Below, one piece after another: positions 27,631 through 30,496 of a stretch of 37,519 nucleotides of DNA (the first letter of the stretch is position 1; each line of letters opens with the position of its first letter). Below the pieces are notes generated by a model. That model was not told where the DNA came from and ran no database searches. It saw only the letters and a list, made by a program, of their open reading frames with translations. Position numbers and translations under genes: made by a program. The stretch spans positions 1 through 37,519 of the forward strand of contig JAITMK010000130.1 of assembly GCA_031277415.1 (NCBI GenBank), in the 5' to 3' direction. Origin of the DNA: Azoarcus sp. GTDB taxonomy: Bacteria > Pseudomonadota > Gammaproteobacteria > Burkholderiales > Rhodocyclaceae.

Positions 27631-27930
27631 CTAATGCAGCACGCTCGGAGGAGGGCTTGCATCAGGGAGCGGACGCGTCATACGCATGATTTCGACAGAA
27701 TTACGAAGCGCTTTTATGACTGAAGCGACACCCGCCACATAGGCTTCCGGTTTATCCTGGTCGATCACTTGAGCGTTGTATTTTGTGAGGCCATCCAGAA
27801 TGTGCTGCCAGTCCAGACGATGCGCAAGCAGCGTGCCGCATACGGACATGAGAACATTCATCTGAGCTTGCTGCATTACCAGCAAATTTTTTAGGTTGGT
27901 TTCATCATCATTCATTTCATTTCCCGCCAC
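27631..27930 (-). CDS. hypothetical protein, 99 aa
   Basis: ORF MAGNEMNDDETNLKNLLVMQQAQMNVLMSVCGTLLAHRLDWQHIL...; plausible coding, no family recognised; stop lies in the CTAA flank of element D. Confidence 0.5.
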   Translation of the reverse strand: MAGNEMNDDETNLKNLLVMQQAQMNVLMSVCGTLLAHRLDWQHILDGLTKYNAQVIDQDKPEAYVAGVASVIKALRNSVEIMRMTRPLPDASPPPSVLH

Positions 27931-28256
27931 GATCTACATGAAAACGTAATATATCGCCCATACACCCTTATATTAGATATTTTTTTTGTATTTTTTAGTG
28001 TGGAAATCCCTTAGCACAAATGGACAGGTGAAAATAAATCCATATGTATTTTTTCTATCATCATTAACTACGACATTTCGATACGAGAGCTTTTCGCGGG
28101 AAATGTGTGCCATTTTTTTTGGCGTCAATAAACAAGGCGAAGAAACGTTGTATAAAAAATATATTTTGGAATGGCTATGATGATTAGAGCGGTTTTTGTT
28201 TAGTCGTGCACAAATCATGTGTGTACAAACCCATGGACAACAGGCTGTCACTCTAA

Positions 28257-28386
28257 GGAACCTCTGCATTACCCTATATCCACCGTTTGTCATCCTGCGC
28301 GAAGTCGCAGGATCCATGCGGCGTCTGGATTCTGCGACTTCGCTTCGCTGCGCGCAGAATGACAGGAGGGGTTTTGCAGATGTTCC
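28257..28386. mobile_element. MITE-like element B (130 bp), flanked by CTAA
   Basis: GGAACCTCTGCATTACCC ... GGGGTTTTGCAGATGTTCC; CTAA at 28253-28256 and 28387-28390; reverse complement closely matches element A. Confidence 0.8.
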
Positions 28387-28390
28387 CTAA

Positions 28391-28498
28391 GGATTCTCTG
28401 CAAAACCCCATTCCAATTGCCGAGCGTAGGGGCGACCTGTGGTCGCCCGGTGAATTGCGTGAATGAATGTGCAACAGGAGGAGTAATGCAGACCTTCC
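28391..28498. mobile_element. MITE-like element C (108 bp), shares a CTAA with element B
   Basis: GGATTCTCTGCAAAACCCC ... GAGTAATGCAGACCTTCC; CTAA at 28387-28390 and 28499-28502; contains GTAGGGGCGACCTGTGGTCGCCC. Confidence 0.75.
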
Positions 28499-28584
28499 CT
28501 AACGCAATAAGCTACCTGGCGTGCCGTAGGTACTGTTATCGGCGTCAAGTTCCTTGCATAGTTAGCGACAAAAACATTCGCTGC

Positions 28585-30297
28585 TTATTGCAGGGTTGTC
28601 TCATCACGTTTCATACAATCAGGTTTGGAACCTGAAACTACAGGGTAATTATTGCAGATTTCGTTACTCCGTTTCACGTATGCTTCTAAAAGACAATCTT
28701 TGTTATCTTTACATTCGTCGCGACGTTTGAACCATTCGATTTGGTCACGGACTAATTTGTTTTGCAACCCACCAATGTCAGAGCCCATAAAGGCATCGTA
28801 GTTATCAGCCAGGATATTCCTCCAACTACTAAGGAGACCGCCAGCTTTACAAACTGTCTGCTCGGCAAGACTAAATTTTTCTGCGTCATAGCAATTATAA
28901 TCAGGTCTATGACAAATAGGTCCTGGGCCGGAAACTACAGGGTAAATATTGCAGATTTCGTAATTCCGCATCATGTATGCTTCTAAAAGACAATCCTCGT
29001 TATCTTTGCATTCGTTGCGACGTTTTACCCATTCGACTTGGTCATGGATCAATTTGTTTTGCAGTCCATCAATGTCAGAATTTTGAAAAGCTTCGTAGTT
29101 TTGACCGAGGGTAAGGTCCCAGCTATAAAGAAGACCTTTGTCATTACAAATTGTCTGTTCAGCAAGATTAATATTACTTGAGTCATGACGGTTATAACAA
29201 TAAACCATTGGGTAAGTAACAGCATTTCTACAATAAGGTTTGGGGCCGGAAACTACCGGGTAGTTATTGCAGAGGTCACTAATCCGTTCGCCGTACATAT
29301 AAGAAAGGCATCCAGAGCTGTCTTTGCATTTATTACGGCGTTTTAGCCATTCGTCCTGATCACGGATCAATTTGTTACGCAATTCACCAATGTCAGCGGC
29401 CAGAAGGGCTTTGTAGTTTCTGGCGAGGGTTGAGTCATAACCTGAAAGTCTTTCAGACCTGCAAATTGTTTGCTCAGTAAAATCAAGAATTTCTGGATTA
29501 GAGCAATCGAAACTGGCGAAAGGCTTAGGATTGCTGCAATAAGGTTCAAAACCGGAAACTACCGGATAGTTATTGCAGACCTCGTCAGTCCGCTCCCTGT
29601 ATGCACGAAAAAGACAATCTTCATTATCTTTGCATTCATTGCGGCGTTTTATCCATTCTCGCTGGTCGCTAGTTAATTTGTCGCGCAAATTGCCAATATT
29701 AGCGGAACGAAGGGCTTTGTAGTTCGAAGCAAGGGTTAAGTCCCAACTAGAAAGCAAATAATTATTACAAATTATCTGCTCAGTTTGATTTAACTTTTTT
29801 GGATTAGAGCAATCAAAGTTAGGGAAAAAACGGCCATGGCAGTCAAATGGCTCTTTTTTTCTGCCAGAATAACTCACCGAGCACTCGCTAGGAGATAGAT
29901 AACCTGTTTTATCCGCCTTGTAAATAATTATTGTCTCACTTTGTTCCCTAGGGTACCAACTGGACGCTACTATTTGAACTAGCTCTCCTTTATCGGAATA
30001 AGACACGGATGTTTCATCTGCGCTAAAGTCAGCTATAAGACAGTACTTTCCAGTTTTCTCCTTTTTATAATACGATCTACCCCAATCTTTGGGTGGTGTG
30101 CGATCAATTACGTACACATAAGCTCCATAATCTATTACTTGTATATTTTCATCATCCTCCAGTTTCACTAATTCGTCATAAGAAGGGAAGCAAAATTTTT
30201 GATACTCCCCTACAGCCCCGTCATCGGCATAAGATGACGCTGCCAAGTAAAGCATTAGAAGGGGTGTGCAGAACACTTTACGGACGTTAAAAATCAT
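28585..30297 (-). CDS. secreted/periplasmic protein with four tandem LprI (DUF1311)-like Cys-rich repeats
   Basis: Signal peptide MIFNVRKVFCTPLLMLYLAASSYADD; repeats of about 100 aa, each with EQxxC, LxxNYxAxxxxxIxxLxxKLxxDQxEWxKRRxxCKDxxxCL, CNxYPVVSG, C. Start trimmed to ATG at 30295-30297. Confidence 0.85.
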   Translation of the reverse strand: MIFNVRKVFCTPLLMLYLAASSYADDGAVGEYQKFCFPSYDELVKLEDDENIQVIDYGAYVYVIDRTPPKDWGRSYYKKEKTGKYCLIADFSADETSVSYSDKGELVQIVASSWYPREQSETIIIYKADKTGYLSPSECSVSYSGRKKEPFDCHGRFFPNFDCSNPKKLNQTEQIICNNYLLSSWDLTLASNYKALRSANIGNLRDKLTSDQREWIKRRNECKDNEDCLFRAYRERTDEVCNNYPVVSGFEPYCSNPKPFASFDCSNPEILDFTEQTICRSERLSGYDSTLARNYKALLAADIGELRNKLIRDQDEWLKRRNKCKDSSGCLSYMYGERISDLCNNYPVVSGPKPYCRNAVTYPMVYCYNRHDSSNINLAEQTICNDKGLLYSWDLTLGQNYEAFQNSDIDGLQNKLIHDQVEWVKRRNECKDNEDCLLEAYMMRNYEICNIYPVVSGPGPICHRPDYNCYDAEKFSLAEQTVCKAGGLLSSWRNILADNYDAFMGSDIGGLQNKLVRDQIEWFKRRDECKDNKDCLLEAYVKRSNEICNNYPVVSGSKPDCMKRDETTLQ

Positions 30298-30496
30298 AGT
30301 GCACCCTAGCCATCTTGACAGGAGAAAGTGAAGCATTATAGTCCGTCGGAAACGTACTTCTGGTCGGCCCGGAATAGTCAATGTTCGCGGCCTTCATAGA
30401 GAGGTTGCCGGGGCAGTCGATGTTGCCATCTTTGAGCCGGATATACGCGCCGCAGCAGGCTTCCGGGTTCATGCCGCGCCCATGCTGGGCGCGCAT
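30287..30496 (-). pseudogene. VgrG C-terminal (DUF2345-like) remnant
   Basis: CCGAYIRLKDGNIDCPGNLSMKAANIDYSGPTRSTFPTDYN resembles the VgrG tail pattern (YIRLxxGNIxxxxPGxxxxKAAxxxxxGP). Only the tail remains; an in-frame TGA and the pccA terminator lie upstream. Confidence 0.6.

Follow-up and report, generated by a model that had tools for sequence, protein, structure and literature searches.

A candidate orphan polyimmunity protein built from four tandem LprI domains in an Azoarcus genome

The analysed stretch of DNA (hereafter the window) comprises positions 1 to 37,519, 37,519 nucleotides, of contig JAITMK010000130.1 from the betaproteobacterial host Azoarcus sp. (assembly GCA_031277415.1). 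A single open frame on the minus strand at positions 28585–30297 encodes a protein of 570 amino acids. The gene has an AGGG motif upstream of its ATG, a GC content of 41% and a GC3 of 38%. The protein starts with an apparent Sec-type signal peptide without a lipobox (MIFNVRKVFCTPLLMLYLAASSYA, followed by DD), which was read by eye as SPI type and occupies residues 1–24 (30226–30297). It is followed by an N-terminal domain (N-domain) of approximately 130 residues (residues 25–156; 29830–30225), which contains four cysteines and matches no Pfam family, and then by four tandem units of approximately 100 residues each: unit 1 (29524–29829), unit 2 (29221–29520), unit 3 (28906–29214) and unit 4 (28588–28905), all on the minus strand. 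This layout agrees with an earlier annotation made from the letters alone (the sequence-only reading), which had described a signal peptide, an N-terminal region of about 130 residues without a known family and four tandem repeats; the new unit bounds differ from the earlier ones by no more than a few residues. As judged from its sequence, the protein is probably exported to the periplasm.

The repeat is evident at both the DNA and protein levels. DNA repeats among the units show 71–81% identity over 190 nt. Pairwise local protein scores between units range from 230 to 330, whereas shuffled sequences yield means of 27–30 and a highest score of 64 in 500 shuffles; the repeat thus lies far beyond chance, and a chance repeat was rejected. 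Each unit contains exactly six cysteines at equivalent positions (7, 21, 66, 72, 85 and 98 in unit 1), in register in all four units, where about six per unit had been proposed. The motifs KRR..CKD..C and YPVVSG..P.C are kept in every unit, and Glu17, Cys21, Trp59, Arg63, Cys66 and Cys72 are invariant across 24 aligned units. The proposed assignment to LprI/DUF1311 is borne out by the Pfam LprI model (PF07007, formerly DUF1311; curated cut-off of 22 bits), against which the whole protein scores 45.3 bits; searched singly, only units 1 and 2 pass (29.4 and 24.8 bits), and units 3 and 4 give no match. Units 3 and 4 score 119.8 and 122.8 bits with a family profile that itself includes them. The protein shares the conserved cysteines and the Q..W..R core of PF07007 and differs from that family in having four tandem units with six cysteines each. 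A Pfam search of the protein found no MliC domain, and a search against an anti-phage defence library gave no match.

An AlphaFold2 model of unit 1, computed with the 24 aligned units as input, shows four helices (pLDDT 91, pTM 0.81). The full-length model predicts four separate helical units, mostly of usable confidence, in line with the four domains expected from the repeats. Its N-domain is unreliable, and a fold assignment for this region was dropped on account of the low confidence. A PDB fold search with the unit model returned no significant match among solved structures; among PDB sequences, a profile search retrieved only 6ar7, as a weak two-part match.

In a 79-row tree, the four units form one clade (support 100/98), which indicates that the fourfold array arose in this lineage. 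The branching order is (unit 2,(unit 1,(unit 3, unit 4))), with units 3 and 4 as sisters (100/98). The synonymous divergence (dS) between units 3 and 4 is 0.48, while all other pairs fall between 0.84 and 1.29. The sequence-only reading had proposed a stepwise duplication in which units 1–2 and 3–4 are the closest pairs; the second pair stands, but units 1 and 2 form no clade, and their dS of 0.93 is not below that of units 1 and 4 (0.84). The dN/dS ratios between units (0.21–0.48) show purifying selection on all four. The duplications within the gene are old, and all copies have been kept. Purifying selection on four units with the same motifs would lend indirect support to the multivalent function that had been suggested. 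In a genome of the same genus (G021), three tandem genes each encode a related N-domain and one LprI unit, with 29–31% identity over the aligned proteins. This combination of one N-domain and one LprI unit is plausibly the ancestral form of the four-unit protein.

The sampled genomes comprise 150 relatives, 22 members of the genus and 387 of the class, which overlap and amount to roughly 530 in all. Within them, the present gene is the only one with four units in a single frame; the search for further tetra-LprI architectures yielded none elsewhere in this sample. Nearly all sampled LprI relatives are single-unit proteins, and the few with two units are found in Thiomargarita sp. (L109), in a gammaproteobacterial protein (L121) and possibly in G375. 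The family profile detects unit relatives in 7 of the 22 genus genomes. A scan of 85,488 species with a two-motif pattern (A2), which reaches only close relatives and may have left out the Azoarcus genome itself, found no unit relative, and a looser pattern (A3) matched 25 distant loci in genome contigs, none of which has four LprI units by profile. Neither pattern matched viral contigs. Phage records gave no tblastn match, and plasmids gave 12 weak single-unit matches.

The gene lies in a low-GC island (27700–30400; about 35–53% GC, with the gene at about 41%) in DNA of approximately 60% GC, beside a propionyl-CoA carboxylase alpha gene. The island is probably a horizontal insertion. In relatives with sufficient contig sequence, the equivalent site varies from one genome to the next. 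In the genus, this variable site downstream of the carboxylase gene (approximately 28.2–30.5 kb of the window; L134, L139) is occupied by an amidase-like gene of the C92 family in G009 and by RHS/DUF6531 genes in G018, and it is possibly a hotspot for warfare genes. Inverted repeats at 28299–28343, 28368–28409 and 28254–28501 flank the 3′ side of the four-unit gene; ATRSEVAE-type repeat ORFs similar to them occur elsewhere in the same genome (C59), and these repeats are likely dispersed elements. No toxin gene adjoins the four-unit gene in the window, and in the low-GC flanks tblastn detected neither a remnant toxin nor another LprI gene. Since no cognate effector adjoins the gene, we term its product immunity-like and orphan rather than a proven member of type VI secretion system (T6SS) immunity.

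The neighbourhoods of single-unit relatives lend support, by analogy, to the earlier suggestion of an immunity factor against muramidases. LprI genes directly follow GH19-type muramidase genes at three loci, two of which also contain VgrG. In G020 (L028; G020:C9, 6712–15753), VgrG is followed in turn by a 1069-aa effector, an LprI gene, a 270-aa orphan GH19 tip, a second LprI gene and a gene encoding WG repeats with LprI, an arrangement well known from polymorphic toxin cassettes. The C-terminus of the effector resembles GH19-like endolysins (phrog_181, E-value 2.8e-23; PDB 9ms7 endolysin, 1.5e-8), and the orphan tip is 50% identical to it. In the protein encoded by the last gene of the cassette, 12 WG repeats precede a terminal LprI unit, which is an unusual design for an immunity protein. 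At the second locus (G014), the gene for a GH19-like protein overlaps the LprI gene by 16 bp; the third (G147, from another family of the same order) reads GH19 effector, LprI, VgrG. Five LprI genes, at three loci, lie no more than 3 kb away from GH19, where 0.036 would be expected by chance; as sequences from those LprI loci went into the GH19 profile, this count is biased. The N-domains differ among the GH19-linked LprI proteins, and the LprI unit is constant. Against the immunity reading, the relatives also contain GH19 genes, long effector-like ones among them, that lack an adjacent LprI gene, and many LprI genes have no recognised toxin anywhere near them. In Citrobacter, an LprI gene is situated between tssM (IcmF) and tssF. 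In Acidithiobacillus sulfuriphilus (L117, 5911–7134), a gene beside further LprI genes encodes a fusion of LprI with a pesticin-type lysozyme domain, so that antidote and enzyme fold reside in one chain.

The Azoarcus genome itself encodes the T6SS sheath proteins TssB and TssC (C85). Despite their presence, the VgrG C-terminal family PF13296 was not found in this genome. Searches of the genome for GH19 with Pfam PF00182, the G020 effector and the A8 profile were also negative, although the PF00182 result says little because that model matched no control genome either. Contig C59 carries a LysM/LprI pair (L103, 4257–5422) whose genes, encoding a 248-aa LysM protein and a 144-aa LprI protein without any other domain, overlap by 13 bp. 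This pair is of a similar type to SED_RS06235/SED_RS06230 of Salmonella Dublin SPI-19, a LysM effector and its LprI immunity protein, which form a module that contributes in competition assays (PMC8867033). By the same analogy, it would also favour the immunity reading. Elsewhere in the genome (L104; G000:C15, 1953–3305), an LprI domain is followed by a C-terminal domain of approximately 300 residues without a family, in a gene that, as read by eye, follows a phosphoribosylamine-glycine ligase-like gene.

LprI as T6SS immunity and polyimmunity proteins are each already known, and the window protein combines both kinds. The Salmonella Dublin LprI protein is exported, acts as immunity protein against a T6SS effector that targets peptidoglycan, has one domain and is encoded with its effector, whereas the window protein has four units and is an orphan. 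DUF1311/LprI genes are also described as flanking WHIX-class T6SS effectors, which bear GH19, chitinase-like or pesticin lysozyme-like domains, among others, as their toxic part; the available part of that report mentions no multi-LprI protein (PMC12135965). Polyimmunity proteins, defined in 2012, combine several immunity domains (SUKH, SuFu and Imm) in a single chain and usually have no toxin gene linked to them; they are built from other domains, and LprI is not named in the text of that paper (PMC3482391). The window protein has four LprI units, if LprI counts as an immunity domain, and no toxin gene in its operon.

Considering these analogies, we regard the protein, with moderate confidence, as an orphan periplasmic LprI polyimmunity protein directed against T6SS-delivered peptidoglycan glycosidases. 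It would be an exported, disulfide-stabilised chain of one N-domain and four LprI domains. Each four-helix unit would bind and block a peptidoglycan-cutting glycosidase (GH19 or another lysozyme-like toxin) that reaches the periplasm through the T6SS of a neighbouring bacterium. The gene would have been gained by horizontal transfer without its toxin, and tandem duplication would have raised the number of its LprI units from one to four. The four units would then provide more binding sites per molecule, or different units would recognise variant toxins. The architecture, the family, the duplication within this lineage, the purifying selection, the foreign composition and the toxin neighbours of single-unit relatives are observed; from them we infer the export, the inhibition, the target and what is gained by having four units. 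Since the KRR..CKD..C and YPVVSG..P.C motifs are conserved in all units, a shared unit function (avidity or capacity) is favoured over strongly split specificities. A broader proposal would place the protein in a periplasmic class of polyimmunity proteins with an amplified LprI-like domain, whose units split roles such that one orphan protein would act as a polyvalent antidote to several different peptidoglycan glycosidases of the T6SS; this we consider rather unlikely.

An alternative is that the protein inhibits the lysozyme of a gut animal host, with four LprI heads binding the enzyme and shielding the envelope. The family name and the report on M. tuberculosis LprI, as cited in PMC8867033 and PMC7933661, favour this function, and one genome of the same genus (G009, Nt197P3bin56) is of termite-gut origin (PMC7024585). 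The window protein nevertheless lacks MliC, the part described as proven sufficient for lysozyme resistance (PMC7933661), and the GH19-like toxin neighbours of the single-unit relatives indicate bacterial toxins. The LprI protein ScwA of Salmonella Typhimurium has no role in lysozyme resistance and alters the levels of endogenous hydrolases (PMC7933661). By analogy with ScwA, a classical lysozyme-inhibitor role for LprI appears doubtful, and host lysozyme is an improbable target. ScwA itself offers another model, in which the window protein would regulate its own peptidoglycan hydrolases rather than foreign toxins. ScwA controls MltD and other hydrolases, requires its disulfides and, like the window protein, has an unrelated N-terminal region ahead of a C-terminal LprI domain; it is periplasmic, and its disulfides are structurally important (PMC7933661). 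It differs in having a single LprI unit and four conserved cysteines in all, and in acting on endogenous hydrolases. The window gene is sporadic, foreign in composition and located at a variable site, with unit relatives in less than a third of the genus genomes. Such a gene is unlike a housekeeping regulator, and a homeostatic role seems slightly less probable still.

In a further model, the N-domain would be the toxin-specific inhibitor, and the LprI units would merely tether the protein in the periplasm or stabilise it there. The N-domains do vary widely among LprI proteins, with two types within the one G020 cluster, as expected of a specificity module. In the window protein, however, duplication has affected the LprI part and left one N-domain, all three GH19 loci have the LprI unit in common, and some LprI proteins, such as the 144-aa protein of this genome, have no other domain; we give this model only about one chance in ten. 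LprI duplication is also seen in the two-unit protein of Thiomargarita sp., which would fit a neutral by-product of duplication without added function. This we consider least probable, since at a dS of 0.5–1.3 between units any neutral decay should be visible by now, yet all four units keep their six cysteines and motifs at a dN/dS of 0.2–0.5.

If the immunity interpretation is correct, polyimmunity proteins would extend to periplasmic toxins directed against the cell wall, and the four-unit protein would provide a natural case in which to test whether immunity domains multiply for dose (avidity) or for breadth. The GH19–LprI pairs at three loci would strengthen the connection of the loosely named "lysozyme inhibitor LprI" family with interbacterial warfare, and the mechanism of LprI would become testable with small domains.
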